From positions 1-34,442 of the IMG/VR virus record IMGVR_UViG_3300030328_001342: DNA of 34,442 bases; one strand, given 5' to 3'. Shown here piece by piece: positions 3,367-34,242 of this stretch (positions are counted from its first letter, which is position 1; the number at the start of each line of letters is the position of its first letter). The notes beneath the pieces are model-generated. The model was not told where the DNA came from. It saw only the letters and a list, made by a program, of their open reading frames with translations, and made no database searches. The translations under genes were made by a program, and so were the position numbers. The stretch is from a virus.

Positions 3367-3421
3367 AAACACTTATAAACAAGTAATTATATAAATATCA
3401 AATCAAATTAAATTAAATATT

Positions 3422-3781: not shown

Positions 3782-3792
3782 ATTAAATAAAA

Positions 3793-9687: not shown

Positions 9688-9692
9688 TATTA

Positions 9693-9713
9693 ACTATTTA
9701 ATTATATTATATT
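9693..9713 (+). promoter_or_regulatory. AT-only leader shared with the gene at 12426
   Basis: The 21 bases before ATG 9714, together with the ATG itself, match 12405-12428 at 21 of 24 positions. Both are A/T-only runs except for a single C each. They may be part of a late promoter or a ribosome-loading leader. Low complexity makes chance similarity possible. Confidence 0.3.
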
Positions 9714-10904: not shown

Positions 10905-10915
10905 AATTTAGAAAA

Positions 10916-12364: not shown

Positions 12365-12373
12365 TTTTTATAT

Positions 12374-12402
12374 AGGTAAGGGCGCTTCGGCGCCCAATAC
12401 CT
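12374..12402 (+). terminator. Intrinsic terminator after the capsid gene, UUCG loop
   Basis: A perfect 6-bp GC stem (GGGCGC 12380-12385 with GCGCCC 12390-12395) is closed by a TTCG tetraloop. It is extended by AGGTA (12374-12378) pairing with TACCT (12398-12402) across a small internal loop. A T-rich tract follows at 12403-12420. It lies 10 nt after the capsid stop codon. It probably limits read-through and makes capsid mRNA the most abundant species. Confidence 0.85.
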
Positions 12403-15238: not shown

Positions 15239-18200
15239 ATGCCACAAATAGTTAATACTTTTCTAAAGTCTAAGATGAACAAAGACTTAGACAGTAGAAT
15301 AATACCAAACGGCGAATATAGAGATGCTCAAAATTTACAAATAAGTAGATCACAAGGAGCTGAAGTAGGAGAGTTTGAGAATGTTTTAGGTAACGAACAA
15401 CAACAGTATTTATATACTGGTAGAAATGGTGCTAACTATACAGGTAAAATAATAGGTCAATTTACAGATCCAGTAGAAGGTAATATATATATAATGAGTG
15501 CTGGTTATTCTGGAAACGGTAGATGTCCTAGAGATATAGTAGTTTATAGTGGTGCTGCATTACAATCAGCTTCAACTATTTCTTTATACAGCAAGGGTCC
15601 CGGTGGAGCATTATTAAATCCCCAAGTTTTAGGTATTGAAGTAGGTATGACTTTATGGGGTGATAACTGGAATGGCCAACCTTCTGGAGATGGAGGTCAA
15701 GAAACTGATGCAATAGTTACAGCTGTGACAGCTACAAATATAGTGCTTAGTCAATCTATAACTTTAGCTGGAGGAGGTTTTGTTGGAGAAGGAGATAAAA
15801 TATATATTGGTTGGAATAATACTATTCATAGATATAATGTTAACTCCAATACTTTAACTCTTTTAGTAAGAGGTTCATTTTTAAACTTTCATCAAGATTA
15901 TAGAATATTTGGAATAAATTTATTAGAAGATTTATTGTTTTGGACAGACAATAGAAATCAACCTAGAAAAATAAATGTTACATTAGCTAACCCATTGGAT
16001 TTAATTAATCCTACGCATTATGTTAATGAGGATCAAATATCTGTAGCAAAATATTATCCTTATGAAACACCTTTAGTATTACGCCAAACTATTCGAGGTA
16101 TTACAGCTGGAGCTCAAGATACTGCTCGAAAAGGTTATACATTAACAATGGCTGACACAACTAATATTCAAATAGGTGATATAGTAAGTGGTTTTCCTTC
16201 TCAAGGTAGTCAAGAGCTTTGGAACGTAATATACATAGATCCAAATGTTTCAGTAGTTATTTATAATAATTTTAAAGATGGTAGCGCTACTCAAAGACCA
16301 GGTGCTTATAACGGTACTGATAATATAAATATTACTTTTAGTAATACTACAATGTCAAATTCTGCGGAAAGAAAGTTATCTAGAGGGTTTGATCAAACAT
16401 GTAGAGCTGCTGGTGCTGTCGCTGTTGGTAGTTTACTTTCTATAAACTACAATTATAACAACGTAAATACTGAACAATCACCTCAACCAACACCAAGAAT
16501 AGGAGACTATATAACAAGCGCTACAATGAACGGTCCTAGTGGATTGGGAATTACAATAAGTGATGAAGTTGTTATAACAGAAGTTAATTTAATAACTCCA
16601 GGAGCTACAGGAAAAATTGATATAAAACTTTCTAAAGCAGTTACAGTAAATGCTATAGGAAACGATATTACTATTTCAGCGAATCCAAATTATAATGATA
16701 CTTTTACAGGTGATCCTGATTTAATAGAGGAAAAATTTGTAAGATTTAGTTATAGATTTAAATATGAAGATAATGAATATTCATTAGCTGCTCCTTATAC
16801 ACAACTATGTTTTATTCCTGATCAAGAAGGAATTATAGGGGGAGGTAAAAATGAGCAATTGCAAGATATGGTTAACATATATGATTCTACAATTGTTGAA
16901 TGGTTTACCAATAAAATAGATACAATAGCTTTAAAAATTCCTTTACCAGATGGTGGAACAACAGAAGCTACAGCTTTAGAGTTTTTAAATAATAATTATA
17001 AAGTAACTAATATAGAAATATTATATAAAGAATCAGATGGTTTATCTTCAAAAATTCTTGACTCTATAGAGGTTAATAATTTAACAGCTTCAAATATTGT
17101 AAAAATTCCTAATAGCACTGGTAATACAACTCAATTTTATTATGATTTTAATTATGAGTCTATAAAACCTTATAGAACTTTACCTACAAGTGAACAAAAT
17201 AGAGTTTATGATAATGTTCCGTTAAAAGCTTTAGGTCAAGAAGTATCTGCAAATAGAGTTATATATGGAAACTTTTTACAAAAACATACTCCTCCAAACA
17301 ACTTAGATTATGAGGTTATAAATAGTAATAAATCTGTTAGCTATAATAATTACTCACAATATCCTAATCATTCTGTAAAACAAAACAGAAGTTATCAAGT
17401 AGGATGGGTTTTATCAGATAGATATGGAAGAGCTTCTAGTGTGGTTTTATCTAGTAACGATGATAATCCTTTATTGAATGGTTCTACTATTTACGTACCA
17501 TATAAAACATGGGGAGAATTAGATAACACGATAACTGATATAACAACTTATAAATGGTTGGGCAGTGCTTTAAGAGTTAAATTAAACAATGGTATTACTC
17601 AAACAACTAATAATTCTATAACTGGTGAGCCAGGTTTATATAAAGCTGAAGAAGATACCAGTGTAGATTCGGCAACAATTGTAAACCCTGGAACAGGTTA
17701 TACGGTAGGTGATAAATGTACTACTAATTACGGTGCTCTTGGCAACTTAGGGTTAGGAGAAGATTTTGAAATTCAAGTTCAATCTATAAGCGGAGGAGGT
17801 CCTACAGGACCAATATCAGGTTTTACAATTATTAACCGTGGAAGTGGATATGTTAATGATCAAATACTAACCCTTGTTGGTGGAACTGGAAGTAATGCTA
17901 CAGTTAAAGTAACGGTAAACGATGCTAATCCCACGGGTTGGCAATCATATAAGTTAGTTGTAAAACAACAAGAACAGGAATATTACAATGTATATTTACC
18001 CGGTTTTATATCAGGTTATCCAGTAGTAAACTCTGGTGAATATGGTAGAATAGCTTTCTCTGTATTATTAGGAGACAATATAAATAAAGTACCTAGAGAT
18101 TTAAATGAAGTTGGACCATTACAAGATGAGTTTTCTGCTTCAGTTAATTTATTTGGAAGAGTAAACAATCCAAATATTGATAATAAAAATAAAGGAGCTG

Positions 18201-20182
18201 CAGGTAATTATTATAACAATAGAACTTACCCGTGGAATACACAGTATTTTCCAGGTAGAAAAAATGATGAAGCTGTTACGGTTGGTAACATAGGTCAAAG
18301 TGGTTTACAGTTAGGAACTTCTCCTTTTGATAACACTGGAACTCAAGGCGAATTCAATAATAGTACTGGAGATATACCTTGGGGTAATCCAGGTGTATAT
18401 CAAAGTTTGTACAATCAAGAACAAGCTCCTATAGCAATGGGTTTAAAAATTGGTGCAGAAGAATCTCAACCACAATTAACACAAGCCGGATCTCCTCAAT
18501 TAAATACATTGGGGGCAAAAGTTACAGCTAATGTTTTTGGAGCTGCTCAAGGTACTAATGATGGTTGTATGGTTCCTTTTTTAAGTGTATCTGAAACCTC
18601 ACCGGTAGAAAGTTTATTAGAAATATTTTACGAATCATCTACCTCTGGAAATTTTATAGATTTAAATAGACAGGTTACAGCAGATTACGCTGGTGTTTCT
18701 GGAACTACAGTTACTGCAGGTAGTTTTGGTGAAGATACGGCTTCTGGAACAGCTTTAATTACTGCGTTTAGCTTTACAGATTCTGCTGGTAATAATTTAA
18801 CATTAGACAGTGTACCAACTATTACTCAAATTTTAGATGGAAACGGTGTTGATGTAACAGGTTCTTTTACTATAGTACAAAACGGTGGTAGTCCATTGAA
18901 TTTTGATATTAAAACAAATCAGCTGTTTTGGTATGGTAATGAAACTCCAAGTAAATCTAATACTTTTATATTATCTTTTCAAACAAGTTATAGTAGTGGA
19001 ACTTATATAGATATATTAAATAATCAAATAACTATTAGTTTAACTAATATTGCTCCGGTAATTGGAGGTTTTACTCCTTCAGTAGGTCCAGATGCTGGTG
19101 TTCAACAAGCTTGTAGTAAAGCAGGTGGATCCTCAGGATACGACACAACTACTACTAATTTTGGTCAATTTACAGGTGGTAAAAATGGAAGTGCAGATCC
19201 AGGTAGTGATACATTGGAACTATGTCATAGTCTTTCTGTACTAGCTTCACCAGTAGGATCAACGGCTGTGTTTGAAATAGATCATGAAACTGGAGTTGTA
19301 ACAAAAACAAGTGGTACCTTAGTTAACGGAACCTATAGTTTTGAATGCACGTTGACAGACGCGGCTGCTTATTATCCTCCTAATTGTATAAGTTATTCTG
19401 GAAGTTTACAAACAACATGTAATTATGATATCGTGCTTGGAACTCCTCCAGTAAATCAAGTATTATGTTATGGTCCTTCAAGCGCAATGGCTAGTTTGGA
19501 CACATCGTGTGTATATGGAGGAACGGGTTACCCGTTAGAAGTATTTTTTGGAGCAAACAAATTTATTAATTCAGGTACTGGAGGCGCTACAGGAAGTGGA
19601 ACTGCTAGTATATTATCTACTATTGATACAGCTATAGGTGTTGGTTCTTTAGGTTACGGGTTATCTTCAAATAATAATCTAAATTTAAGATACTACAATG
19701 CTTATAACGAGGCTTTAGCAGGGTTCGCGTGTGGTTTACCACCGGTAGCCCCAGTTTTTACAACAGGTTCTTTAGTTCAAGGAATATTTGCATTAAAAGT
19801 AACTTTAAGCAAAACAGCTTATGCTTCTACTGAAAATGATTATAGAACAAACTTTACAATATTATATAGACCTAGTTCATCTGACCCTTGGCAATTAGCT
19901 ACAACAGATTCTAGTTCCCCCACAGCTCCTAGCTCGACAGTTGGTAACTTTAATCAATTAGATATTACAGGGAGCGGAATAGCGAGTTCATCTTTAACTT
20001 ATCATTTTAGCGCAGTAGGAGAATATGCTTTTAGAAACAACGGTGTTCAAAATGGAACAGGATGTTCTGTTTCAGGGTGTTACACTTGTGCTAGAGTTGA
20101 TGTTGATTTTTATGATGCAATAAATGGACCAGGTCAAACAGGTTGTCCCGGAACTGCAGATCCTTGTACTGGACCACTGTAA
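15239..20182 (+). CDS. Large tail stabilisation (muzzle-type) protein with cadherin-like Cys-rich C-terminus
   Basis: This 1647-aa protein begins with the typical stabilisation start (NTFLKSKMNKDLDSRIIPNG, then EYRDAQNLQIS) and has LLFWTDNRNQPRKINV near residue 240, FVRFSYRFKYEDNEYSLAAP near 500, and KPYRTLPTSEQNRVYDNVPL with LKALGQEVSANRVIYGNF near 640-680. These are patterns of P22 gp10-like/muzzle proteins in crAss-like phages. Two Gly-Ser/Thr-Gly-Tyr repeats lie at residues 818-821 and 868-871. The C-terminal part (about 1200-1647) has a cadherin-like strand (FEIDHETGVVTKTSG, residues 1345-1359) and 13 Cys between 1292 and 1643. It probably forms the distal tail and may carry receptor-binding domains. 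Expected C-terminal propeller sequence appears in the next gene instead. Confidence 0.8.
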   Translation: MPQIVNTFLKSKMNKDLDSRIIPNGEYRDAQNLQISRSQGAEVGEFENVLGNEQQQYLYTGRNGANYTGKIIGQFTDPVEGNIYIMSAGYSGNGRCPRDIVVYSGAALQSASTISLYSKGPGGALLNPQVLGIEVGMTLWGDNWNGQPSGDGGQETDAIVTAVTATNIVLSQSITLAGGGFVGEGDKIYIGWNNTIHRYNVNSNTLTLLVRGSFLNFHQDYRIFGINLLEDLLFWTDNRNQPRKINVTLANPLDLINPTHYVNEDQISVAKYYPYETPLVLRQTIRGITAGAQDTARKGYTLTMADTTNIQIGDIVSGFPSQGSQELWNVIYIDPNVSVVIYNNFKDGSATQRPGAYNGTDNINITFSNTTMSNSAERKLSRGFDQTCRAAGAVAVGSLLSINYNYNNVNTEQSPQPTPRIGDYITSATMNGPSGLGITISDEVVITEVNLITPGATGKIDIKLSKAVTVNAIGNDITISANPNYNDTFTGDPDLIEEKFVRFSYRFKYEDNEYSLAAPYTQLCFIPDQEGIIGGGKNEQLQDMVNIYDSTIVEWFTNKIDTIALKIPLPDGGTTEATALEFLNNNYKVTNIEILYKESDGLSSKILDSIEVNNLTASNIVKIPNSTGNTTQFYYDFNYESIKPYRTLPTSEQNRVYDNVPLKALGQEVSANRVIYGNFLQKHTPPNNLDYEVINSNKSVSYNNYSQYPNHSVKQNRSYQVGWVLSDRYGRASSVVLSSNDDNPLLNGSTIYVPYKTWGELDNTITDITTYKWLGSALRVKLNNGITQTTNNSITGEPGLYKAEEDTSVDSATIVNPGTGYTVGDKCTTNYGALGNLGLGEDFEIQVQSISGGGPTGPISGFTIINRGSGYVNDQILTLVGGTGSNATVKVTVNDANPTGWQSYKLVVKQQEQEYYNVYLPGFISGYPVVNSGEYGRIAFSVLLGDNINKVPRDLNEVGPLQDEFSASVNLFGRVNNPNIDNKNKGAAGNYYNNRTYPWNTQYFPGRKNDEAVTVGNIGQSGLQLGTSPFDNTGTQGEFNNSTGDIPWGNPGVYQSLYNQEQAPIAMGLKIGAEESQPQLTQAGSPQLNTLGAKVTANVFGAAQGTNDGCMVPFLSVSETSPVESLLEIFYESSTSGNFIDLNRQVTADYAGVSGTTVTAGSFGEDTASGTALITAFSFTDSAGNNLTLDSVPTITQILDGNGVDVTGSFTIVQNGGSPLNFDIKTNQLFWYGNETPSKSNTFILSFQTSYSSGTYIDILNNQITISLTNIAPVIGGFTPSVGPDAGVQQACSKAGGSSGYDTTTTNFGQFTGGKNGSADPGSDTLELCHSLSVLASPVGSTAVFEIDHETGVVTKTSGTLVNGTYSFECTLTDAAAYYPPNCISYSGSLQTTCNYDIVLGTPPVNQVLCYGPSSAMASLDTSCVYGGTGYPLEVFFGANKFINSGTGGATGSGTASILSTIDTAIGVGSLGYGLSSNNNLNLRYYNAYNEALAGFACGLPPVAPVFTTGSLVQGIFALKVTLSKTAYASTENDYRTNFTILYRPSSSDPWQLATTDSSSPTAPSSTVGNFNQLDITGSGIASSSLTYHFSAVGEYAFRNNGVQNGTGCSVSGCYTCARVDVDFYDAINGPGQTGCPGTADPCTGPL

Positions 20183-20211: not shown

Positions 20212-21606
20212 ATGGCAACTACTTTAGAATTATCATACTTTAATACTTTTTGGTTGAAAAGATTAAAAAACTTTACTCAATACCAAGAAAGAGAACCAGA
20301 TGGTAGTGTTGGAGTAGATAGTGGTGGATTAACTACTGGAACACCAGATCCATCTACAGGAGCTGGTTATATAAATTCAAATATATATGAAGATTGGTTT
20401 GTTGAAGAATCTAGAATAAAAGGAGGATACAATAATACAAGTGTAGATTTTGGTAACAAAGCTTACATAGTAGAAGAAGAAGATAAACAAATAAGAAGAC
20501 AGAATGCTTTAATTTATTCTGGTGTATATAATTCTAAAAATGGTATAAACAATAGTAATCAATTTCCAATAGGTGAAGATATAACAAGAGCGGTAGATCC
20601 AGCTTCGGGTAGTATACAAAAATTATATGCTGAAAACACAAACTTAATTATACTTCAAGAAAGAAAAGTTAATAGAGCACCAATAGATAAAGACGTGTTA
20701 TTCACTCAAGAAGGTCAACCTTTAACAGCTGATAGTAAAGTGGTTATAGGAACACCTACTGCTTTTGAAGGTAACTTTGGTATATCTAGAGATCCAGGTT
20801 CATTTGCGGTTTATGGATACAATAAATTCTTTACTGATAGAGACAGATCTGTTGTGATGCAGTTAGGGCCTAATGGTTTAAACGAAATATCTAATTATGG
20901 TATGATAGATTATTTTAGAGACCAATTAGCTGTAGAAGGGGAAATAATAGGAGGATACGATGTATTTAATAAGAATTATGTGGTTACCATTACTAATAGC
21001 ACTGTAGTATTTGATGATTTAATAAATGGTTGGACTAGTTTTATGGATTATATACCACAACTCTCTACTAGTTTATATGGTCAATACTACACGTTTAAAA
21101 ACAATGCTGTTTGGAAACATTATAGCGGAACAATATATAATAATTTCTATGGAAATCAAGTAGTTTCCAGTGTTCAACTAGTTTTTAATCCTGAACCAAC
21201 TAGAACAAAAACCTTTTCAACTATAAATTATGCTGGAAGCAACGGATGGAAAGCCAATGTTTTATCAGATTATACAGGTGTAGATTCTAATCCTCAACAA
21301 CCAGCCTTGGGTGATACAACTCATACAGACGTTTCTTCTACAATACTTAGTTATGATGAGGGGTATTACACAGATCCAAATAGTGGAGTTCAATATAGAG
21401 CAGGTTTTGATAGAAAACAAAACACTTATTATGCTGCTATAAAAAATAATTCTGGTATATTAGCTCAAGATGTTATAACTCCTGGAAATAAAGTTACAGG
21501 TATTAAAGCTCAATACGCAGTAGTAACTCTTACTCAAGATAGTACAACAGATGTAACTGGTGCTAAGCAATTGTTTAGTGTAGGAGCAGGTTACAATAAT
21601 AGATAA
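20212..21606 (+). CDS. Second tail stabilisation protein (C-terminal propeller half)
   Basis: This 464-aa protein starts after a 29-nt A/T-rich leader. Residues 134-160 (SIQKLYAENTNLIILQERKV, then NRAPIDKD) and the block FGISRDPGSFAVYGYNKFFT with DRSVVMQLGPNGLNEISNYG are hallmarks of the C-terminal part of crAss-like stabilisation proteins, where they normally follow the N-terminal half in one chain. Here they are a separate gene in a different frame. The rest is beta-propeller-like (VFNKNYVVTITNSTVVFDD, WTSFMDYIPQ). The most likely reading is a stably split muzzle: two proteins that assemble into one tail structure. A frameshift artefact is unlikely, because the upstream gene ends in its own distinct domain and a normal leader separates them. 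Confidence 0.75.
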   Translation: MATTLELSYFNTFWLKRLKNFTQYQEREPDGSVGVDSGGLTTGTPDPSTGAGYINSNIYEDWFVEESRIKGGYNNTSVDFGNKAYIVEEEDKQIRRQNALIYSGVYNSKNGINNSNQFPIGEDITRAVDPASGSIQKLYAENTNLIILQERKVNRAPIDKDVLFTQEGQPLTADSKVVIGTPTAFEGNFGISRDPGSFAVYGYNKFFTDRDRSVVMQLGPNGLNEISNYGMIDYFRDQLAVEGEIIGGYDVFNKNYVVTITNSTVVFDDLINGWTSFMDYIPQLSTSLYGQYYTFKNNAVWKHYSGTIYNNFYGNQVVSSVQLVFNPEPTRTKTFSTINYAGSNGWKANVLSDYTGVDSNPQQPALGDTTHTDVSSTILSYDEGYYTDPNSGVQYRAGFDRKQNTYYAAIKNNSGILAQDVITPGNKVTGIKAQYAVVTLTQDSTTDVTGAKQLFSVGAGYNNR

Positions 21607-22010: not shown

Positions 22011-22997
22011 ATGGCAGCAGTAACAGCAGTCGTCGCGGGTGTATCATACGCGGTAGCAGGAGCGGTAAAAGCTGGAAAAGCGCATAAAGAAATGCGTAAA
22101 GCCCGTAGTGCTAAAAACGAAGCTAAATTTAAATTAGAACAAGCTATTAATAATAGAAGAGATATAACTAATCCCTACGCAGGAGTAACAGATTTATCTG
22201 GTTTAGCAAGTGATTTATCCTCACAAATAACTAATCCATTCAATAATCTACAAGTTTCTACAGCAGCGGCTGAAATGCAGGCGGAAGAAACTGATATAGC
22301 TTTAGCTAATACATTAGATACTTTAGAACAAACAGGAGCTAGTGCTGGTGGAGCTACGGCTTTAGCAATGGCGGCATTAAAATCTAAAAAAGATGTAGCT
22401 GCTACTATTGAAACGCAAGAAGCTGCTAACTCAATTAAACAAGCAGAAGGTGAACAATATGCTTTAGATAATAGAATTAAAGCAACGGAAAGATATGAAG
22501 ATACTCAAATAGCTCAAGGGATGAGAGTTCAAGACGCGGAGGCAGCTGGTGAAATATTTCAATACCAAGCGCATGAAGCAAGAAGCGTTGCGGATATAAA
22601 TAGATATCAAAATATGTATCAAGGTTTTTTTGGTCATCAACAAACAGCAGCGCTTGCCTCAGCTGAAGCTACCGGTCAAATGATACAAGGAGTAGGTCAA
22701 GCTGTAGGTGGAGTATTTAGTACAGATGGTATGGGAGCCGGAACAGGTAATCCATATTTTGGTGGAGGTTCTGATAGACGTATGAAAAAGAATATAAAAC
22801 TTATAGATAAATCTCCTAGTGGTTTAAATATATATGCTTTTGAGTATATAAACAAACTATTTGGTGAAGGTGTTTGGCAAGGAGTTATGTCTGACGAGGT
22901 TCCAACAGAAGCTGTAATTAAAAACTTTGCAGGGGAATTTGATGGCGTAGACTATTCTAAGGTTGACGTTGAGTTTAAAAAAATACAACTGAGTTAA
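22011..22997 (+). CDS. gp14-like internal virion protein with C-terminal S74 auto-chaperone domain
   Basis: This 328-aa protein has three parts. Residues 1-30 are a small hydrophobic Ala/Val/Gly segment (AVVAGVSYAVAGAVKAGKAH), residues 30-230 a long Ala/Gln/Glu helical region (NTLDTLEQTGASAGGATALA is typical), and then a Gly-rich linker. The end is an intramolecular chaperone domain of the S74 type: GSDRRMKKNIKL at residues 253-264, SPSGLNIYAFEY, GVWQGVMSDEVP and YSKVDVEFKKI. In that family the chain cleaves itself just before the Ser (here S254) with help from a Lys five residues on (K259). The N-terminal part resembles T7 gp14-like ejected proteins, which insert in the outer membrane. S74 domains usually end tail spikes or fibres, so the combination is unusual. 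Confidence 0.8.
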   Translation: MAAVTAVVAGVSYAVAGAVKAGKAHKEMRKARSAKNEAKFKLEQAINNRRDITNPYAGVTDLSGLASDLSSQITNPFNNLQVSTAAAEMQAEETDIALANTLDTLEQTGASAGGATALAMAALKSKKDVAATIETQEAANSIKQAEGEQYALDNRIKATERYEDTQIAQGMRVQDAEAAGEIFQYQAHEARSVADINRYQNMYQGFFGHQQTAALASAEATGQMIQGVGQAVGGVFSTDGMGAGTGNPYFGGGSDRRMKKNIKLIDKSPSGLNIYAFEYINKLFGEGVWQGVMSDEVPTEAVIKNFAGEFDGVDYSKVDVEFKKIQLS

Positions 22998-23007
22998 TAA
23001 ATTAAAA

Positions 23008-24561
23008 ATGAATACATTAATAAAAGCACATAACGATAAAATGAATCGATTAGTTAACGTATCTTCTAAAAGACGAGTAACTGAATTAGATTTTTTCACT
23101 GAGTGTAGTATAAAATATAAGGATTATTTAAACGCACCTTTAGCGTTAAATCCTAATGAAAGTAAAAAGCTTAGTGACGTTATTAAAAATTCTTTTATAC
23201 AGCAAGCTCAAGATCAAGAATATGGAGTTATATTAAGATCTACTAGATTAGCTACAGATATTAAAAACATGTCTCAAGCGCAAATAAAAGAAGATAAAAA
23301 ATATATTAATGATTTTTTTAGTAGATTAGATAAGATTCAAAAATTAGGAGGATATTTAATTGTTGCCGTAGAAAATATTACACCTGAAAATCTACCTGCT
23401 TTTATATCCAATTATAAAAATCTTAATATAAATGGTACTAATGAAAGTACTAGAGATAGAAATATGTTTATGCTAGCTGCGTGGGCTAATTTATTTGATT
23501 ATTTTGATGATGTAAAAGTAGAAAAAGATTTTACATTTAGAGAAACAAATAACGGTGAAATAGCTGTATTAAATCAAAGAATTAAATTTTTAATAAAAGG
23601 AAGTACGTTTAAAAAATATTTACATAAAAAACAATATGTAATTAATGATTTTTTAAATAATAAAAATATTACATTTGATGAATACGGTAATGGATATTAT
23701 ACTATATATGGAGAAGTGGATAGTACTCAACTACCAAATGGGGATTTATTAAGCTTATATATAAGCGAGGTCCCGCAACCTATGGATTTAGGTCAAACAT
23801 TTGAAGATGGAGGTATAACTAGAAACGCTACTCTACAACCTCAATATTTTTTAGGAGGAAGTATATTAGATGAAAATGATCCAAATAATACTGATAACGA
23901 TACCTCTATTAAAATTCCAATGTATAATGTTAATGAAAATAGGGTTAAAAGATTCTTTGTTAAACCAATAAACACTGTTGCAATAAATAAAACACCGGCT
24001 TATGCTGCGGAAGTAAATTCTCATATAGCAGGATTGTTTGCGGTTGCTAGTGGAGATATTTCTGTTTTATCTGGATACAGTAATAAAAGATTAGGTATAG
24101 ATTTACCTTTAGGTATAAATGAAGTAATTACACCGGAGTTAGAACAAATGTATCAAATGTTATCTCCTGAAGGTAAAGTTGGTTTTGTAGGTAATAGATA
24201 TATGTTTAATACTACCGGTAAAAATCAAGATAGAATAAGTTTAATAGATGCTCAAAAAGCATTTATAATGGATTTAATTTTAGACGCTAATTTAGATACT
24301 AAATTAATTCAAGAAAATATGCCAGGTGAGCCTAGTATTATTAAAGAAACTTTGAGAGACGATACTACACAAGGTAAAGATTTAATAAAAGCATTAAATG
24401 ATAATGAAATGCCTATACCTGAATATTATAAGAACATGCTTAATATTACTGAGTGGCAAGCTGGTATGCCTGTATATTTACAAAAATTACCAGAAGAAGT
24501 TAGAGACTTGCCTACAGAAAAATCACCAGAAGTTGTTGAATTTATAGAACAATATTCGTAA
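23008..24561 (+). CDS. Uncharacterised virion-block protein (T7 gp15 position)
   Basis: This 517-aa protein starts after an A/T-only leader. The first about 180 residues are helical and charged (SKRRVTELDFFTECSIKYKD, then IKNSFIQQAQDQEYGVILRS). A mixed middle follows with YVINDFLNNKNITFDEYGNG, and a region near 290-310 rich in Asn/Asp. The C-terminal third is helical (ELEQMYQMLSPEGKVGFVGN, then DAQKAFIMDLILDANLDTKL) and ends in a Pro/Glu-rich acidic tail. There is no signal peptide, membrane helix or known catalytic motif. I do not recognise it. Position between the gp14-like protein and the giant protein suggests an internal core or ejected protein, as gp15 is in T7, but there is no sequence evidence for that. 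Confidence 0.8.
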   Translation: MNTLIKAHNDKMNRLVNVSSKRRVTELDFFTECSIKYKDYLNAPLALNPNESKKLSDVIKNSFIQQAQDQEYGVILRSTRLATDIKNMSQAQIKEDKKYINDFFSRLDKIQKLGGYLIVAVENITPENLPAFISNYKNLNINGTNESTRDRNMFMLAAWANLFDYFDDVKVEKDFTFRETNNGEIAVLNQRIKFLIKGSTFKKYLHKKQYVINDFLNNKNITFDEYGNGYYTIYGEVDSTQLPNGDLLSLYISEVPQPMDLGQTFEDGGITRNATLQPQYFLGGSILDENDPNNTDNDTSIKIPMYNVNENRVKRFFVKPINTVAINKTPAYAAEVNSHIAGLFAVASGDISVLSGYSNKRLGIDLPLGINEVITPELEQMYQMLSPEGKVGFVGNRYMFNTTGKNQDRISLIDAQKAFIMDLILDANLDTKLIQENMPGEPSIIKETLRDDTTQGKDLIKALNDNEMPIPEYYKNMLNITEWQAGMPVYLQKLPEEVRDLPTEKSPEVVEFIEQYS

Positions 24562-24570
24562 TAAAACTAC

Positions 24571-27500
24571 ATGGAAGAAGAAAACGAAATCCCCGGAGGC
24601 GCATCCCCAAAGGTTATAGAATCTTTGTTTTTCCCAGATCCTTCAGTTAAAAGATCTGATGATAATGAAAGAGATAAAGAATTAGCTGAAGAAGTTAATA
24701 TTTTTGGTACTGGAAATATTGCTATAGATGAAATATTGTTTCCTATTAATCCAAGTTTAGCAAGTATTGTAGCTGGTGATGATGTTGAAGTTGTTGATGA
24801 AGAGGGCAATGTAATGTTAGGTGCAACTGATGATCTTGAAGATGATGGTCAAGACGCTAGAAACTTACAACTAAGTATGCAAACTAGACCTTCTTTAGCT
24901 ACTGAAGATGATAATTATCTTAATTTACGAACTGATCAAATTAAAGAAGTTCAAGAAGCTTTAAATAAAACAGGAAAAAATATTAAAATTTTTGATCATA
25001 AACAGACTCTTGAGTATCAAAAAAATCAAATCCCTGTTACACATCCTAATTATGATGAAATTAATCAACAATTAGAGGATTACAATCAACAATCTATAGA
25101 TGCAAGCGGTGTAGGTATGGGTATGTATGCTACTCAAGACACTGGAGAAATTGAAAAACTGTTATCAAGTATAACTAATAATTCTGGGATAATAAATCTT
25201 AATTCAATAAATAAGCTTAATATAGATTTACCTTCTATAGTAGATGATGGGTATTTTAATCCTGATGCAGAATTACCAGAAATAAAGTGGAATCCTAGTG
25301 AAAGTGGATTGGAAAAATCAAATGAAGCTCAGTACGATTGGGAAAATTTAAAAAATTTATCTAAAGAACAAATTGATGAGATTGAATTAAATTCATCTTT
25401 TGAAGCATATGCCATAAGTAAAATGCTAGAAGGAGAGCCCGAAGGTTCTAACATGAGAGATATATTCCAAAAAGAAAAAATGGAGGATTATGAAACTTTT
25501 ATGGAATGGGCTGGAGGCCAATTTAAAAAAATAAAGATGGCTGATCCATTCTTAGCTGGTTGGGATAAAATAATTCGGTCTAAAGTTAATGAAGAATGGT
25601 TTGGTAGTAAAAGATTAGAGTTTGAAAAACAATTCATCACACCTTGCGTAGAGAAAAATGGTGGTGTTGCTACAGAAGATTGTTTATTAAGACACCAAGA
25701 AAGTGCATCCGCGTGGTGGAATAATAGATATAATGAATTGCGTAATGACAATGAATACATTAGAGCAATTGATATACAATACAATATAGGTTTTAGTAAA
25801 CTAATGAATAAATTACGCGAGCCTTATTTTAGAACTCAAATTGATACATATAGAGAGTTAGATGATCAACTCGAGCAAGGTGGATATACTTTTACAAAAT
25901 TTGGAAAAGATGCCGCTGCGAAAGTAGGTTTTAGTATCGATCAAACTAAAGCATTAATAAGCATGATGTACGCAAACACTGGTGTTGCTGGTACTAAAGC
26001 TAGAAGCGAATTAATAGAAAGATACAATATGCCTGGTTTTAAAGAGTTTGCGACAGAGTCTGGTTTATATGATCAAGCTATAAAAACATTTAGAAGTGGT
26101 GGTGGAGCTGAATCAGGTTTTGGAGGATATTATTTAGAAGGAAACTTATTAAATTTAAGTAATACTTTTAATATAATAGGTAATAAAATAACACGGTCAG
26201 CTTTAGGTGCTAATACTACAGGTTTATATACTCCAAAAGGTGGTATAGAATACGTATTACATGGAGGTTCTGGAAAGTTAGCTGATAGAGAAGGTACTAT
26301 AAAACTTGATAGAGATAATTTCCAAGAATACTTTGATTTACCAGAAAAATTTACTTATAGAGAGTTAAACGAAGTAGGAGGACGTGAAGCTTGGGAAATG
26401 ATTAAACAACATGGGCAAGCTTATTATTCACCTATTAGTGTCCGTGATTTTATGAACGCTAAAGAGGTTGTAAAGGGCATAGACAAATGGGTTGTAGCTG
26501 GAAAATCAAAAACCGATTGGAATCTAACACCGTGGGCTAAGATATATGGTGGAACAGGTTGGAGATATGGAGATATGACTATTAGAGACGTGTTTGAAGG
26601 TAGAGAGGCGACTGAAGGAGAGGAGATGGTTTCTAGTGTTTTAGATTATGATATAGAACAAACAGGTGTGCTATTAGATACCACTGTTAAAATGCTTGAA
26701 GCTGAAGCTGCTGCTGGATTTGCTTTAGATCCTGATGTCGAATTTGATGATCTAACAAGTTTGATGAGACACCTAGTAGCTCAAACACCTACTATGGGTT
26801 TTATGTATGCTGGAGGTATATTACAAGGTACAGGTAAGCTTGTTTCTAAAGCTCCTGGTTATGGAAAACCAATTGGCTATGGGGTAGAACTTGTGGGTAA
26901 AGGTATAGCACTAATAGGTACTTTAAATATGATGGCTCAAGAATTTACATCAAATGTTGTAGAAACCTGGAGACAATCGATTATGAAAAATAATGGAGGT
27001 AAACCTCCAACAGTAGAAGAATTTATAGCTATTGCTAGTGATCCTGCTAGTGAGGAAATTATTCTAAAAAGTTTTGCCGGTGCTGGAACATCTGCAATGG
27101 CTGAAAAAGTAGGGGTTAGCGCTACATTACTTGGATTTAAACCAGGAAGAACAATGTTAGCTTCTTTATATAGAAAAGAATTTCTTAAGTTTTTAAAACA
27201 AACACCAAAATGGGTTTTAACTACAGCAATTGGTGCTGGTGGGGAAGGTGTTACAGAGGCTTTTCAAGGAAGAGTTCATGAAACTACTGTTAACTGGTCA
27301 TTAGGTATGGGTTTTGGACAAAGCTGGTCACAATCTAACTGGGACGAACAAGGTTTTCAAGTTGGTTGGAGAATTGGTTTAGCTTTACCGGTAGCGCAAT
27401 CTACTATCTCACAAAGTTTAGTTGAAATAAACCAAGTAGGTATGGATGTAGCTAGTAAATTAATAATGGATCCTAGTAAATCTAATAGTATTTTTGCACC

Positions 27501-30500
27501 TATGGCATCAGCTAATAATTTCTTTAAAGAAGCTATAGCTGATATACAAAAAAGAATAGATAATAAAAGTATACCTAAAGAAGAAGGTATAAACGCTATA
27601 TCTAATCTTTCTAACATGAGGAATAGCGGTATGAAAATACCTGTTACAATGCCAGTTGAGCAAAGAAAGCAGATGCTTGAATTATTAATAGCTCAAAATA
27701 ATCTTAAATTAAAAATAAAGAAAACTGATAATAAAGAGGTAAGTGAAGGAAATGGAGATACTGCTGCTTTAGCCCTTATAAATCAACAAATAGTTTCGTT
27801 AACTGAACAAGAGGTTACTAGAGAACTTTACATGAACAAAATGGGTAATGTTCAGAAAATAGTAGATGAAACTTCTAAAGGTAAAGTAAAAATATTCAGA
27901 GAAAAAAACACTGATGCTATAAATAAAAGAATTGAGGAATTAAATAAGAGTGGTTGGAATATTAGAAAACAAAGCAAAGCCAACGCTGGTTATGGAGATA
28001 TATATCAAAAAGGTGATCAACAAGTTATACTTCTTAATGAAGCAGAAATATTATCTGATGGTAAAATAAATACTGGAGCTCATGAGTTTTTACATGCGGT
28101 TATTTATCAGACAGTTAAAAACAGTAAAGGAACTGCTGTAGAACTTGGTAATAATTTACTTACTTATATTAAACAAATAAACCCTGACGCTTTAAAAAAG
28201 GGAGAATTTAAAGAGAGATACGAACAGTATAAAAATGATGAAACTGTTACAGATGCGGTAATGGGAGAAGAAATACTTACATTATTTTCTGAAGCTGTTT
28301 TAGATGGTGCTATAAAGCTAGACTCTTCTATGCTACAGCAAGTAGGAGAGTTCTTTACTAGAATAATTGATACTTTAATGGGTCGTAAAAAAGCTATTAC
28401 ATTTAATACTGGTAAAGATGTTTATGATTTTATAAAAGGTTATAATAAAAGTATTGAAAAAGGTAAATTTACACAAGCACAAAAAGACTTATTTGAACAA
28501 GGTGCCACAGGTGATTTAGTTAAAAGAAAGTATAATGCTAGTGGAAAAGGAGTAAGAAATCCAAATGAGAAAAAAGCTAGTAAAAAATTAACTGATTTAA
28601 TAGTAGACTTTCAAGAAGGTACAATAGATTATAAAAAATTAAAAGATCAATATTTAAAAGTTGGTAAAAGTGAGTTAAAAAGATGGGTTGGTTATCAACC
28701 AGATATGACTATTGATTTTAAAAACCCTAAAAAAATCAAACAAATTGAAGATTTGTTAGAAGCTCAATTCCCAAGTTTTGAAAGAAACTTTGATGCTGAC
28801 AAAAGCCAAGCTACTACTTACATGGGTAACATTGCTAAAAGAGTAGGTATTGAAATAGCTAAAGAAGGAGCTCGTCAATCTAAACAAGTTAGTACTGATG
28901 TTTTACAAGAAAAAGGTTTTTCTCCACAGATTACTACTCAACCAGATCTAGACGATAAATTAAAACCTGTAGATAAAAGAGGAAAAGTATTTCCTAATGC
29001 AGTAAAAGCAATAGCAGATAATATAACAGGCGAAACTAGAGAAGATCAAAAGGTTTTACTTAAAAATGATATAGAAGAGGCTATATTAAGAGTTGGGACT
29101 AACCCTAAAGATATAGTTAAGTATATAGTAGAAAAAACTAAATCAAAAGAATATAGAAAACTAATTAAAGATAAACTAGGTGTATATGGAAGTGATCAAT
29201 ATATAGATAATGTTATTAGTTTATTTGAAAATAACGATTTTATTAAAGCTATACCAGTGGCTAATATTAAAAGAAGATTTGGGAAGTTATTTGGTATAAA
29301 ACAAATAAACACTGTTAAAACCAAAAAAACCGAAGATGGTAAAACAACTTACTGGGATAAACCAGTTTATAAAATACCAGCAGTTGATAAAACTAAACTT
29401 AATAGAATAAAAAATTATTTCTTAGGTGGTGAAAAAAGATCTCAATCTTTATTTAGTATGATTGGAGAAGGTATAGCTGTAGAATCAATGGAAGAACTAT
29501 CTAAAGATTCTAATTTTATAGCTGAACTTCAGAATAAATTAAAATTTAAGGATCCTAATTTTGAGAAACTTACTGCTAAAGATGAATTAAGAATAGAGTC
29601 TTTACAAAAACAAATAAATCCAGAAACAAAAGAAAAGTATACTAAAGCTGAAGCAAAAGCTAAGGTGGTAGAAGAAGTTTTATTAGAAAAAACTTTAAAT
29701 TTTATAAATGATATTTCTTTTAATCTTGATAAAAGAAATCTTGAAGATACTTCGTTTGATGAAGCAAAAGCTTCTAAAAAAGTTCCAGCGAAAGTTAGTA
29801 AAGAAAGACAAGCGGACTTAGATAGGATGACGCCTAATCAAAGAAATGCTGAAGAAGGATATTCACCTTGGGAACTAGTTAGACAACGTGATGGATCTTT
29901 AGAATTAGATAGAAGATTTGTAGGTAGAGCAGAAGCAATAGCAACTTTAAAAAGAATGGGTGAAGATACATCTCAAGATATGGAGTCGTTGCTAAAAAAC
30001 AACAATGTTTATGAACCTCAGTATAAATCTAGTAAAAAATATAGACCTAACCTTGAAGAATTAACTGGTACTGAAAAGATTGATTTAACCGCAGGAGATT
30101 ATGAAGCAAATATAAAAGCTATAAATAAAGCATTAAATAAAATTAAAGGTGTTCCAACTATTGCTGTTACTACAAATGAAAGAGTAAATCTTAAGACTTG
30201 GAAGAAAGAATATAAAAAAGGAAAATATGATTTATCACCTGAAGACGTAAAATTTTTAGATAATCTTGACAGTAAAAAAGGAGATGAATTTGATGCTGGT
30301 GTTGATTATCTTTTAGAAAAGTATGGTGCTATATATGATTGGAATGCCAAAATTGATCCTGATAAAGAAAATTCTTCAACTTACGGAGAGGTTCGTGATG
30401 CAATGACAAAACAGATTATTGAAAGTTTTCCTGAAAAAGATAGACCAATGATTAGACAGTTGTTGCTTGACATGTCTACAAATCAGTTTGCAGTAGGTAT

Positions 30501-33500
30501 AAAATCAAAAAGTTTGGAACTTGAAGGTGGAACTACTACTGGAGCTAGAAAAGGTAATTTAGGTTTATATGGTGTTGAATCTGAATTTAATAAAAATGTT
30601 CCAGAATATAACTGGGAAAAAGGTGATACTCCATTAGTTACACGTGATAAGTATACAAAAACTATAGACGGAAAAAGCCAAAGAGTTGATTGGAATAAAG
30701 TTAGAGGTAAAGACTTTATTGCGAATCAAGATTTAAAACTTCCAGCTTTATTTAAACTTATAGATGGATTAAAGAAATTTAAAAATGATCCAAATTTTAC
30801 ATGGTATCTTAAAGCTTTAACCGGTAATGTTTCTAATACTCAAACGCATCCATTTAGGTTTTTAATGCCTTTACGTAACATAGAAGTAGACCCAAAAACT
30901 AAAAAACCTTTTAATCAAAAATATATAGAAGAACATACTTTTGTTGCTAATAATTTAGGTAAACTTGTAGAATACGGTATATGGAGTAACCAACTACCTA
31001 TTGTAAAAAAGATAATTAATGCGTCAGCTTCTCAAGCAGCTCTTACTGAAGTTACTGATAATAAATTGAAACCATTAAAATTAACCTCGAAGATGGGTAA
31101 AGCTTATTCAAAGTTAATAAAAGGTATAATAGATGGATCACGAAACGCTGCTATACAGGGTTTAGCTTCATTCATTAGATATAAAGATGTACTTACTCTA
31201 AGCAAAATCTATAATTTAAAAGAAGGGAAGACGATGAATGAGGTATTAGGTTTTAAAATAACAGGAGCTAATAATAATCCCGATTCTAGAAATGAAGCAA
31301 ATAATATAGCAAATGCTATTTATGATAAAATACAAGCAGGTGACTTAACAATAGAAGCTCTACCTGAAGCATTAAATGAAGGACAAAAATTATTAGATGC
31401 TAGTAATAAAGTAAATAGAAAGTCTAGTAAAAAAGTTAAAGTAAATAAAGAACAATTATTTGATTTAATAAATCCTGATGGAACTACTGAAGAATCTATA
31501 CAAGCAATGTCTAAAGCTGATAAAGCTATACAAGAAGGTAATAAATTAGATAAACCTACTAAAGGTATAAGTGTTTTTGATTTTGATGATACACTAGCGT
31601 TTAGCGATAGTAAAGTTATTGTAACACAAAATGGTAAAACTTTTAAAATAACACCAGCTGAGTTTGCAGAATCATTTTCAATACTAGAAAGCGAAGGAGC
31701 TACTTTTAACTTTGATGAATTTAATAAAGTTGTAAAAGGAAGAAAAGGACCTTTAGCAGACTTAGCATTAAAACGTCAAGAGAAGTTTGGTAGTGGTGAT
31801 ATATTTGTATTAACCGCAAGACCACAAGCATCGGCTGAATCTATACAAAAATTCTTAAAAGGTATAGGATTAGATTTGCCTTTATCAAATATAACTGGTT
31901 TAGAAAATGGAACCCCTGAAGCAAAAGCGCTGTGGGTTATAGATAAAGCAGCAGATGGTTATAATGATTTCTATTTTGCTGATGATGCTTTACCTAATGT
32001 TCAAGCTGTTAAAAACGTATTAAGCCAGATAGATGTTAAGTCGGATGTTCAACAAGCTAAATCAAGTAAAAAAATAAGAATAAATAGAGAATTTAATAAT
32101 ATAATTGAACAACAAACTGGTAAAGAATGGTTTAAAACATATTCTGAAGCAAGAGCACAAGTTGAGGGTAAAAAGGCGAATAAATTTGAATTCTTTATAC
32201 CTCCATCAGCTGAAGATTTTTTAGGATTATTATATAAAATGCTTCCTAAAGGAAAAGATGGAGATAGAGCTCTTGTGTGGTTGCAAGATCATTTAATAAA
32301 TCCTTACCATAAAGGTGAACAAGCTGTTATTAGCGCAATGATAAGTGTAGCTAATGATTTTAATGCTTTAAGAAAAAGTTTAGATAATATACCAAAAAAC
32401 TTAAATGATAATTCTGGTTATAGTGATTTTACTTATTCTCAAGCTCTAAGAGTATACATGTGGAACATGCAAGGGTTAGATATACCTGGTCTTTCAAAAA
32501 GAGATTTAAATAAACTAACAAAGCTTATTGAAAATAATGCTGATATGAAAGTATTTGCAGAGAAAATTGTTTTTATACAAAAAGGTAAAGGTTATCCCAA
32601 ACCAACAAATAATTGGGTGGCGGGCAGTATTACTCAAGATATAATAAGAAACATTCAAAAAACCTATAGAAAAGAAGCTTTACAGGAATGGCAACAAAAT
32701 GTAGATATTGTATTTTCTGAAGAAAACATGTATAAGTTACAAGCTTTATATGGTTCTAATTATACAGATGCTTTAAAAAATATTCTTGGCAGAATGAAAC
32801 GTGGTAGCAATAGAGTTGTTAGTGATAACAAACAAGTTGAAAACGTAATGGATTGGATTAATAATTCAGTTGGTACAACTATGTTCTTAAACAGAAAAAC
32901 AGGTTTATTACAATTACTTTCTAGTGTTAACTTTATTAATTGGACAGATAACAACATAATGGCCGCGGGTAAAGCATTTGCTAATCAACCTCAGTACTGG
33001 AAAGATGTAATGTACTTATTAAACTCTGATTATTTAGTTCAAAGACGTAATGGTATGAGAATAAATGTAGCTGAATCTGAAATTGCTGAAGCATCTAAAA
33101 AAGGAGGAATGAAAGGTGCTATTGCATACTTATTAAACAAAGGATTTGTATTTACTAGAATAGCAGATAGTTTAGCTATAGCAACAGGTGGTGCAACTTT
33201 TTACAGAAATAGGGTAAATGCTTTGCAGAAACAAGTAAATATAAATACAGGTAAGCTTTATACTAAAGCTGAAGCCGAATCTAAAGCATTTGATGATTTC
33301 TATAAAGTAGCAGAAGAGAGCCAGCAATCAAGTAGAGCTGATAGAATATCTATGCAGCAAGCTAGTGGACTTGGTAGAGTTATATTAAACTACGCTAACA
33401 CTCCAATGCAGTATGCAAGAATTATAAAAAGATCTACTCAAGATTTATTAGCTGGTAGAGGTGATTGGAAAACACATGTAAGTAAAATACTTTATTACGG

Positions 33501-34242
33501 AGCTGTACAAAACTTAATATTTAACGCGTTACAATCAGCGTTGTTTACAATATTGTTTGATGAAGAAGAAGAAAAGGATAGAACCATGTCTGATAAAACA
33601 GCTGATGTAGGTTTTGGAATGTTAAGCACCTTGTTAAGAGGTTTAGGATATGGAGGCGCTTTAGTTGATACCCTTATATCTATGGGTAGAGAAATAAGCA
33701 TGAAAGAAGATGGTTTACCAAGTTTCTCTAAGGAATTTGCTTGGAATGTATTTGATTTTTCTCCATCAATAGATACAAAAGTTAGAAAAATAAGAAGTAT
33801 TCATAAAACATTTACATATAATAGAAAGGAAATTAAACGTAGAGGGTTTAGTTTAGAAAACCCTGCATATTTTGCTTTTGCTGAACTTATATCAGCGGGT
33901 ATTAACATACCACTTGATAGAGCTTTACGTATGGCTATGGATTTAAAACAAGCTTCAGATAAAGAAACAGCGCAATGGCAAAGATTTGGATTAATGGTAG
34001 GATATTCAAGTTGGTCTCTTAATCTACCTTATTGGGGAACAACAACTACAATAAATAATGAAGCTAAGGAAGACGAACAAATAGAAACAAAATATAAAAA
34101 CGATGCTCGTAAACTTAAAGGAATGGGATATAAGAGAATTCCAATGACTAAAGGAAAACCAGCTGGTAAAAAAATGGAAGATTACATTGAAGTTACTAGA
34201 CCTACTGGTGCTACTGAGTATTGGTTAATGCCTAAAAAATAA
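24571..34242 (+). CDS. Giant polyvalent protein with HExxH peptidase and HAD phosphatase domains
   Basis: This 3223-aa chain fills 28% of the window. An acidic, disordered N-terminus (1-130) and helical region lead to a Gly/Ala-rich hydrophobic stretch (about 741-1000, with GGEGVTEAFQ). A zincin motif AHEFLHAV follows (H1171, E1172, H1175), with MGEEILTLFSEAVLDG downstream as a possible third-ligand site. A HAD phosphatase has all motifs: FDFDDTLA (D2337, D2339), LTARP (T2415), a Lys in PEAKALW and FADDALPN (D2471, D2472). The C-terminal part (2500-3223) has NTPMQYARIIKRSTQDLLAG and a hydrophobic segment (about 2979-3000). Such multi-domain chains are known as polyvalent proteins (Iyer and Aravind) and are often injected with the DNA. 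It lies in the T7 gp16 position. No lytic transglycosylase or RNA polymerase motif was seen. Confidence 0.85.
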   Translation: MEEENEIPGGASPKVIESLFFPDPSVKRSDDNERDKELAEEVNIFGTGNIAIDEILFPINPSLASIVAGDDVEVVDEEGNVMLGATDDLEDDGQDARNLQLSMQTRPSLATEDDNYLNLRTDQIKEVQEALNKTGKNIKIFDHKQTLEYQKNQIPVTHPNYDEINQQLEDYNQQSIDASGVGMGMYATQDTGEIEKLLSSITNNSGIINLNSINKLNIDLPSIVDDGYFNPDAELPEIKWNPSESGLEKSNEAQYDWENLKNLSKEQIDEIELNSSFEAYAISKMLEGEPEGSNMRDIFQKEKMEDYETFMEWAGGQFKKIKMADPFLAGWDKIIRSKVNEEWFGSKRLEFEKQFITPCVEKNGGVATEDCLLRHQESASAWWNNRYNELRNDNEYIRAIDIQYNIGFSKLMNKLREPYFRTQIDTYRELDDQLEQGGYTFTKFGKDAAAKVGFSIDQTKALISMMYANTGVAGTKARSELIERYNMPGFKEFATESGLYDQAIKTFRSGGGAESGFGGYYLEGNLLNLSNTFNIIGNKITRSALGANTTGLYTPKGGIEYVLHGGSGKLADREGTIKLDRDNFQEYFDLPEKFTYRELNEVGGREAWEMIKQHGQAYYSPISVRDFMNAKEVVKGIDKWVVAGKSKTDWNLTPWAKIYGGTGWRYGDMTIRDVFEGREATEGEEMVSSVLDYDIEQTGVLLDTTVKMLEAEAAAGFALDPDVEFDDLTSLMRHLVAQTPTMGFMYAGGILQGTGKLVSKAPGYGKPIGYGVELVGKGIALIGTLNMMAQEFTSNVVETWRQSIMKNNGGKPPTVEEFIAIASDPASEEIILKSFAGAGTSAMAEKVGVSATLLGFKPGRTMLASLYRKEFLKFLKQTPKWVLTTAIGAGGEGVTEAFQGRVHETTVNWSLGMGFGQSWSQSNWDEQGFQVGWRIGLALPVAQSTISQSLVEINQVGMDVASKLIMDPSKSNSIFAPMASANNFFKEAIADIQKRIDNKSIPKEEGINAISNLSNMRNSGMKIPVTMPVEQRKQMLELLIAQNNLKLKIKKTDNKEVSEGNGDTAALALINQQIVSLTEQEVTRELYMNKMGNVQKIVDETSKGKVKIFREKNTDAINKRIEELNKSGWNIRKQSKANAGYGDIYQKGDQQVILLNEAEILSDGKINTGAHEFLHAVIYQTVKNSKGTAVELGNNLLTYIKQINPDALKKGEFKERYEQYKNDETVTDAVMGEEILTLFSEAVLDGAIKLDSSMLQQVGEFFTRIIDTLMGRKKAITFNTGKDVYDFIKGYNKSIEKGKFTQAQKDLFEQGATGDLVKRKYNASGKGVRNPNEKKASKKLTDLIVDFQEGTIDYKKLKDQYLKVGKSELKRWVGYQPDMTIDFKNPKKIKQIEDLLEAQFPSFERNFDADKSQATTYMGNIAKRVGIEIAKEGARQSKQVSTDVLQEKGFSPQITTQPDLDDKLKPVDKRGKVFPNAVKAIADNITGETREDQKVLLKNDIEEAILRVGTNPKDIVKYIVEKTKSKEYRKLIKDKLGVYGSDQYIDNVISLFENNDFIKAIPVANIKRRFGKLFGIKQINTVKTKKTEDGKTTYWDKPVYKIPAVDKTKLNRIKNYFLGGEKRSQSLFSMIGEGIAVESMEELSKDSNFIAELQNKLKFKDPNFEKLTAKDELRIESLQKQINPETKEKYTKAEAKAKVVEEVLLEKTLNFINDISFNLDKRNLEDTSFDEAKASKKVPAKVSKERQADLDRMTPNQRNAEEGYSPWELVRQRDGSLELDRRFVGRAEAIATLKRMGEDTSQDMESLLKNNNVYEPQYKSSKKYRPNLEELTGTEKIDLTAGDYEANIKAINKALNKIKGVPTIAVTTNERVNLKTWKKEYKKGKYDLSPEDVKFLDNLDSKKGDEFDAGVDYLLEKYGAIYDWNAKIDPDKENSSTYGEVRDAMTKQIIESFPEKDRPMIRQLLLDMSTNQFAVGIKSKSLELEGGTTTGARKGNLGLYGVESEFNKNVPEYNWEKGDTPLVTRDKYTKTIDGKSQRVDWNKVRGKDFIANQDLKLPALFKLIDGLKKFKNDPNFTWYLKALTGNVSNTQTHPFRFLMPLRNIEVDPKTKKPFNQKYIEEHTFVANNLGKLVEYGIWSNQLPIVKKIINASASQAALTEVTDNKLKPLKLTSKMGKAYSKLIKGIIDGSRNAAIQGLASFIRYKDVLTLSKIYNLKEGKTMNEVLGFKITGANNNPDSRNEANNIANAIYDKIQAGDLTIEALPEALNEGQKLLDASNKVNRKSSKKVKVNKEQLFDLINPDGTTEESIQAMSKADKAIQEGNKLDKPTKGISVFDFDDTLAFSDSKVIVTQNGKTFKITPAEFAESFSILESEGATFNFDEFNKVVKGRKGPLADLALKRQEKFGSGDIFVLTARPQASAESIQKFLKGIGLDLPLSNITGLENGTPEAKALWVIDKAADGYNDFYFADDALPNVQAVKNVLSQIDVKSDVQQAKSSKKIRINREFNNIIEQQTGKEWFKTYSEARAQVEGKKANKFEFFIPPSAEDFLGLLYKMLPKGKDGDRALVWLQDHLINPYHKGEQAVISAMISVANDFNALRKSLDNIPKNLNDNSGYSDFTYSQALRVYMWNMQGLDIPGLSKRDLNKLTKLIENNADMKVFAEKIVFIQKGKGYPKPTNNWVAGSITQDIIRNIQKTYRKEALQEWQQNVDIVFSEENMYKLQALYGSNYTDALKNILGRMKRGSNRVVSDNKQVENVMDWINNSVGTTMFLNRKTGLLQLLSSVNFINWTDNNIMAAGKAFANQPQYWKDVMYLLNSDYLVQRRNGMRINVAESEIAEASKKGGMKGAIAYLLNKGFVFTRIADSLAIATGGATFYRNRVNALQKQVNINTGKLYTKAEAESKAFDDFYKVAEESQQSSRADRISMQQASGLGRVILNYANTPMQYARIIKRSTQDLLAGRGDWKTHVSKILYYGAVQNLIFNALQSALFTILFDEEEEKDRTMSDKTADVGFGMLSTLLRGLGYGGALVDTLISMGREISMKEDGLPSFSKEFAWNVFDFSPSIDTKVRKIRSIHKTFTYNRKEIKRRGFSLENPAYFAFAELISAGINIPLDRALRMAMDLKQASDKETAQWQRFGLMVGYSSWSLNLPYWGTTTTINNEAKEDEQIETKYKNDARKLKGMGYKRIPMTKGKPAGKKMEDYIEVTRPTGATEYWLMPKK
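28576..32073 (+). repeat. Dispersed (A/S)SKK tetrapeptide at domain borders of the giant protein
   Basis: ASKK or SSKK occurs at residues 1336-1339, 1734-1737, 1820-1823, 2285-2288 and 2498-2501, each in a lysine-rich linker and followed mostly by a hydrophobic or aromatic residue. The last two closely bracket the HAD domain. A sixth ASKK at 2841-2844 lies inside an apparently folded region and may be incidental. Confidence 0.6.

Follow-up and report, generated by a model that had tools for sequence, protein, structure and literature searches.

A giant phage gene encoding a candidate injected polyvalent protein with a zincin-like and a HAD phosphatase-type domain

The window, i.e., the whole stretch of DNA analysed, is a 34,442-base IMG/VR virus record with the gene order holin (2890), GroES co-chaperonin, TerL, portal, a 396-aa gene occupying the usual scaffold position, a capsid-family MCP (phrog_13704), tail genes, a 328-aa gene, a 517-aa gene and a giant gene. 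The genes discussed most are the following.

20212..21606, + strand: 464-aa tail gene whose product carries the crassvirus muzzle C-terminal domain (PF25729, E 2.4e-12)
22011..22997, + strand: 328-aa gene, candidate small member of an ejection trio, resembling T7 gp14 only in its position and its helical, Gly/Ala-rich make-up
23008..24561, + strand: 517-aa gene, candidate for the middle place in the trio, resembling T7 gp15 only in its position
24571..34242, + strand: giant gene, ATG start, 3223 aa, candidate ejected polyvalent virion protein; eight IMG/VR relatives align along most of its length

TerL and portal matched 87 phage records, comprising Flavobacterium elemo, Cellulophaga, Tenacibaculum and Maribacter phages and one metagenomic genome, and the window phage is assigned to podoviruses related to the Flavobacterium elemo phages, Pervagoviridae and Pachyviridae. 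Since these kin are phages of Bacteroidota, a Bacteroidota host is likely; the phage itself is marine. The muzzle domain in a phage with an elemo-type terminase and portal hints that its tail may be more broadly related to those of Crassvirales. The two tail genes at 15239-20182 and 20212-21606 matched different parts of phrog_14478 (1474 aa), as if one ancestral gene had been split. A 114-aa ORF at 1020-1364 carries another HExxH-type motif (DHEKVHLDQ) and has PHROG matches of unknown function.

The giant gene is the last of three neighbouring genes, in agreement with the T7 gp16-like genome position proposed in an earlier note on this DNA, which concerns position only. The two smaller genes of the trio may encode ejection proteins; the 328-aa gene had no structure match and the 517-aa gene no Pfam or PHROG match. 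The C-terminal extension of the former, missing from eight aligned relatives, resembles the start of the Peptidase_S74 endosialidase chaperone domain at a sub-threshold E of 0.004.

The earlier note had read 24571-34242 as an ORF of 3223 aa whose product combines a peptidase-type with a HAD-type domain. The ORF (plus strand, ATG start) was reproduced exactly, and the combination of domains was supported. The encoded protein (P0001) had no Pfam match as a whole, tblastn of both its halves against 50,697 phage records gave no sequence match, and PDB fold searches, swamped by helices, returned nothing at E ≤ 0.001. The following parts were delimited within it.

26779..27630, + strand: glycine/alanine-rich, weakly hydrophobic helical module, residues 737-1020, candidate membrane or ejection part
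27886..28500, + strand: zincin-like metallopeptidase domain, residues about 1106-1310, AlphaFold2 pLDDT mostly >90
28081..28095, + strand: HEFLH, predicted catalytic motif, residues 1171-1175
28270..28272, + strand: E1234, predicted third zinc ligand, invariant in 90 relatives
31561..32040, + strand: HAD phosphatase-type domain, residues about 2331-2490, four motifs and a Rossmann-like model
31579..31593, + strand: HAD motif I, DFDDT (D2337, D2339, T2341), invariant in 46 relatives
31813..31821, + strand: HAD motif II, T2415-A-R2417, invariant in 46 relatives
31924..31926, + strand: HAD motif III, K2452, invariant in 46 relatives
31981..31986, + strand: HAD motif IV, D2471-D2472, invariant in 46 relatives
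32068..34239, + strand: conserved, almost all-helical C-terminal region, residues 2500-3223, common to polyvalent proteins

HEFLH was found where the earlier note had placed it and is the sole HExxH in the giant protein, with 0.005 occurrences expected by chance from the protein's own composition. An AlphaFold2 model of residues 700-1345, built with 68 sequences, gave in succession a strand, a helix, two further strands, the HExxH helix and a later helix with E1234: in model numbering, strands 407-412, 443-448 and 451-457 and helix 415-427 are predicted to form a three-stranded sheet with an N-terminal helix, and E1234 sits in helix 529-545. The same strand/helix layout is described for the polyvalent metallopeptidases (MPTase) by Iyer et al. 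(PMC5512222). Among 90 relatives picked by HExxH only, without regard to residue 1234, E1234 was the only other invariant residue besides the motif; the third metal ligand, whose absence the earlier note would have counted against HEFLH, is thus predicted in a later helix. Pfam matches were weak (Peptidase_M78 in 10 and SprT in 6 of the 90 HExxH relatives, best E 0.001), a PDB sequence search with the zincin profile reached zinc proteases weakly, at E about 0.5, with no significant match, and a PDB fold search of the zincin-containing model gave nothing significant. Because the model is confident, its strands and helices follow the zincin order and E1234 is invariant, HEFLH is taken as a real zincin site, an assignment made from the modelled topology and not from a database match.

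The HAD domain was complete, as had been claimed, with all four motifs in order and invariant among 46 aligned relatives, and can be assigned to the phosphatase type from its motifs. When the protein was shuffled 500 times, a loose regular expression for the motif string found a match once. The HAD domain is conserved more strongly than any other stretch of the giant protein, with a mean identity of 0.71 at residues 2401-2500, in contrast to the first 2300 residues, where mean identity to the window was below 0.3. The model alternated strands and helices in a HAD-like Rossmannoid arrangement (pLDDT about 63-83); its PDB HAD neighbours, including the Ceg4 effector and class C acid phosphatases, appeared at E about 1 only, which is not significant, and a PDB sequence search with the HAD profile had no significant match. 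DUF2608 was the commonest weak Pfam match (38 of 46 HAD members, best 1.9e-5), the window member lying below the cut-off.

The C-terminal region, about 700 residues of almost continuous helix, provides in its predicted fold the strongest evidence for membership of the polyvalent class: the model matched in BFVD virus proteins annotated as PolyVal ADP-ribosyltransferase, ART-PolyVal-like, large polyvalent protein associated domain and MuF C-terminal domain, with E values of 1e-4 to 1e-8 for the annotated polyvalent and MuF proteins and below 1e-46 for the closest virus proteins. Domains of unlike activity are combined in the chain (zincin, HAD and the helical C-terminal region), and it is encoded among virion genes, directly after the MCP and tail genes. 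On this fold match, domain mix and virion-gene setting the polyvalent assignment of the earlier note was retained. Likeness to phage polyvalent proteins thus extends to a very large multi-domain protein adjoining virion genes, to the MPTase topology with HExxH and a later-helix glutamate, and to a C-terminal model matching annotated large polyvalent proteins; the giant protein differs in having no sequence match among the 50,697 phage records. It belongs to a known kind, the phage polyvalent protein, and what is new here is the HAD phosphatase variant: the words 'phosphatase' and 'haloacid' are absent from the main text of the polyvalent-protein survey (Iyer et al. 2017, PMC5512222).

Evidence on the location of the protein came from its N-terminal module. 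A profile of this module from 47 further relatives aligned by hhalign with that of Gundel gp074, phi38:1 gp101, phi18:3 gp123 and elemoF gp18 at E 1.8e-20 and a probability of 99.3, against 0.76-1 for column-shuffled and 0.016 for reversed controls; the window's own subgroup aligned more weakly with the same four proteins, at E 2.7e-5. Gundel gp074 matched phi18:3 gp123 at 5.5e-14, and its C-terminus matched relative L008 at 3.9e-10, in a region where L008 is 47% identical to P0001. Positional counterparts at the cassette end were elemoF gp18 (3694 aa, 'structural protein'), phi38:1 gp101 (structural by similarity) and phi18:3 gp123, whose database record reads 'experimental MS/MS proteomics' and so lists it as found in virions. 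The phi38:1 proteomics paper (PMC13288928) covers methylated proteins only, and the sections consulted have no mention of gp101. Family-profile matches to phi38:1 were set aside, the search having used --max and a tiny database. The four isolate proteins share the N-terminal module and most of them the position, and Gundel gp074 and elemoF gp18 also keep the HExxH; however, none of the four has the HAD DxDxT motif. Since phi18:3 gp123 and phi38:1 gp101 lack both the HExxH and the HAD, their virion evidence covers the N-terminal module only, and the common core would be this module, with the enzymes as added cargo. A virion location of the window protein is, accordingly, supported only through homology, by way of the N-terminal module of the MS/MS-recorded protein.

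The hydrophobic segments noticed earlier exist as mild stretches, but they are weak, the best 19-residue Kyte-Doolittle means being 1.21 within 741-1000 (at 771) and 1.41 (at 2978). Both lie below the usual transmembrane cut-offs, so that 'hydrophobic' is a fair description and 'membrane-spanning' an unproven one; the transmembrane reading of 741-1000 was dropped on its best mean. Despite its mild hydrophobicity, the stretch at 737-1020 is a conserved module, with profile matches in 16 family members, 133-151 residues before the HExxH where that is present.

The HAD profile detected the domain in at least 532 IMG/VR stretches. In contrast, tblastn of the window HAD against the 50,697 phage records gave none at E 1, and the HAD of relative L154 as query gave a single remote HAD in an uncultured 462-kb phage; searches with these two members thus found no close relative, and none of the isolated phage records searched carried a HAD of this kind. 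Close matches among genome contigs were mostly on short contigs of marine metagenome-assembled genomes (MAGs) of unrelated taxa, probably mis-binned phage DNA. Among 69 complete proteins selected by the HAD (P0001 included), 62 had exactly one HExxH, and the HAD began roughly 790-1,130 residues past it. When 77 complete proteins were picked via the C-terminal region, without regard to the HAD, 51 had the HAD, usually directly preceding the C-terminal region, and 68 the HExxH; a few relatives that are otherwise very close, e.g., L013 and L100, gave no match whatever to the profile of the HExxH domain. From these frequencies and the losses in close relatives, both enzyme domains are optional cassettes, gained and lost, a feature missed by the earlier note. 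A Pfam search of the central regions of ten HAD-less relatives gave only a near-cut-off DUF6934 and a weak TAFH match. Relative L109 has, in place of one giant gene, two ORFs that overlap, 3256-7728 (HExxH half) and 7718-12151 (HAD half).

Comparison with relative L001 revealed a shift in DNA identity near residue 1480 (window position about 29,000): roughly 55-75% before it and mostly >90% beyond it; blastn gave 94.9% from 29,719 to the window end, genes upstream of the switch had 66-74% identity, and fourfold-site divergence fell from about 0.5 to about 0.1-0.16. This pattern indicates recent recombination in which the HAD half is transferred as one unit.

The nearest named phage family to the HAD was PHROG_415 ('polynucleotide kinase'), which matches the phosphatase domain of T4 PnkP (residues 154-298, E 3e-24), a 3'-phosphatase. 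Nothing pointed to ADP-ribose-phosphate, one of the substrates suggested in the earlier note, and it was dropped after supporting evidence had been looked for and none found. PHROG_415 matched the HADs of relatives L154 (9.8e-9), L162, L148, L118 and L007 (range 4e-4 to 1e-8) and, at 1e-11 to 7.7e-15, free-standing HADs of 168-187 aa from MAGs, which aligned with the family profile along the whole domain (hhalign E 2.4e-24). In relative L123 (ORF 3647-12394, residues about 1744-2110) a Zeta_toxin/AAA_33 P-loop kinase is inserted within the HAD, after motif I, a place where five other relatives have short inserts. The PHROG_415 matches and the kinase insert are a lead towards end-healing chemistry. 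A similar kinase lies elsewhere in the chain of L168, at residues about 795-950.

This lead can be extended to a PnkP-like 3'-phosphatase preloaded in the virion: where anti-phage nucleases of the host have cut tRNA or other RNA, it would start the repair of the ends. As a form of the main reading (below) that specifies the substrate, this is a possible but doubtful reading of the HAD. It is favoured by the family common to the T4 domain, the five relatives and the free-standing MAG HADs, by the kinase within the L123 HAD and by a jumbo-phage survey that names PNK-HAD phosphatases as taking part in RNA repair (PMC7824862). However, the HAD of the window, which shares the four motifs but is embedded in a giant protein, had no PHROG_415 match at E 0.01, and direct hhalign of T4 PnkP against the HAD profile aligned the motif I region alone. 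Moreover, P0001, as distinct from T4 PnkP, has no partner 5'-kinase domain: a search for a kinase or ligase domain found none, nor has it a P-loop motif. The P-loop kinase was confirmed only in L123 and L168, being missing from most relatives and, in the latter, placed elsewhere. The broader proposal that many uncultured marine phages carry in their virions a giant, self-processing protein with a PnkP-like end-healing phosphatase in it, and that repair of host-cut tRNA or other nucleic-acid ends, or removal of a phosphate-based alarm signal, thereby starts ahead of phage gene expression, is regarded as speculative and rather improbable.

With the homology of the N-terminal module to a packaged protein and the polyvalent-like C-terminal fold, the reading as an injected polyvalent protein is well supported, and in all likelihood the virion stores the giant protein and injects it along with the DNA. 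The computational evidence consists of the domains and their degree of conservation, the gain and loss of modules, the kinship in fold of the C-terminal region to polyvalent proteins and the N-terminal homology to a virion protein; it is in our opinion probably best explained by a virion-packaged polyvalent protein that is ejected and processed by its zincin, with the HAD acting early. The giant protein would be the counterpart of T7 gp16 or the N4 virion RNA polymerase in a three-gene ejection cassette and would exit the virion before the DNA or together with it. The weakly hydrophobic 737-1020 module may aid in crossing or lining the inner membrane, and the zincin would cleave, most likely, the giant chain itself, freeing its modules. 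In the cytoplasm the HAD would then, during the first minutes, remove phosphate from small substrates, of which terminal phosphates of nucleic-acid ends or nucleotides are the most plausible. Packaging in the window phage is here deduced from homology; the steps of ejection, membrane passage, self-processing and early HAD action, and the substrate, we infer.

Known systems offer partial parallels. The giant protein ends a small-medium-giant trio, as do the virion RNA polymerase of N4 and DEV and T7 gp16; those of DEV and T7 are ejected, the former being the 3,398-aa RNA polymerase gp71, third of such a trio (PMC10925440). In contrast to N4 and DEV, P0001 had no RNA polymerase domain in Pfam and PHROGs searches, having the HAD and zincin instead, and in contrast to T7 gp16, an N-terminal transglycosylase sought in the same databases had no match. 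Crassviruses keep cargo proteins in both capsid and tail.

It is unlikely that the zincin is instead an effector cutting host proteins, with the HAD acting on host phosphoproteins or signalling nucleotides. Host targeting is among the roles considered for polyvalent MPTases in PMC5512222, and Ceg4 and the class C acid phosphatases among the PDB neighbours of the HAD model would fit, but those matches are not significant; nothing separates host from self cleavage, and an accessory role, whichever of the two it is, would agree with the absence of the HExxH domain from certain very close relatives. Finally, it is highly improbable that the protein is structural or part of an internal core, like a tape measure or core protein, with enzyme-like domains as decayed remnants, even if the gene sits with tail genes and its homologues are labelled structural: across 46 to 90 divergent relatives every catalytic residue is invariant, and no stretch is better conserved than the HAD, features that decayed domains would lose.

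The HAD is the best conserved part of the giant protein, the N-terminal half of which can hardly be aligned. Its conservation and its presence in so many IMG/VR stretches, with no close kin in the phage records searched, mark an important early-infection activity missing from laboratory models. If the protein is injected, it would provide a testable case of a phosphatase delivered ahead of gene expression, and the substrate of the HAD would name the host defence or pathway that these phages must neutralise first.

A short motif, K-[A/S]-S-K-K, recurs in the giant protein at residues 1336, 1734, 1820, 2285 and 2498 (window about 28576, 29770, 30028, 31423 and 32062), past the zincin domain, in linkers and flanking the HAD on both sides. 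Close relatives often have it, whereas few copies occur in distant ones. With one more match, sites of the form [AS]SK[KR] numbered 6, against 0.36 expected and a maximum of 4 in 1000 shuffles, and the K-[A/S]-S-K-K copies could be linker repeats or cleavage sites.
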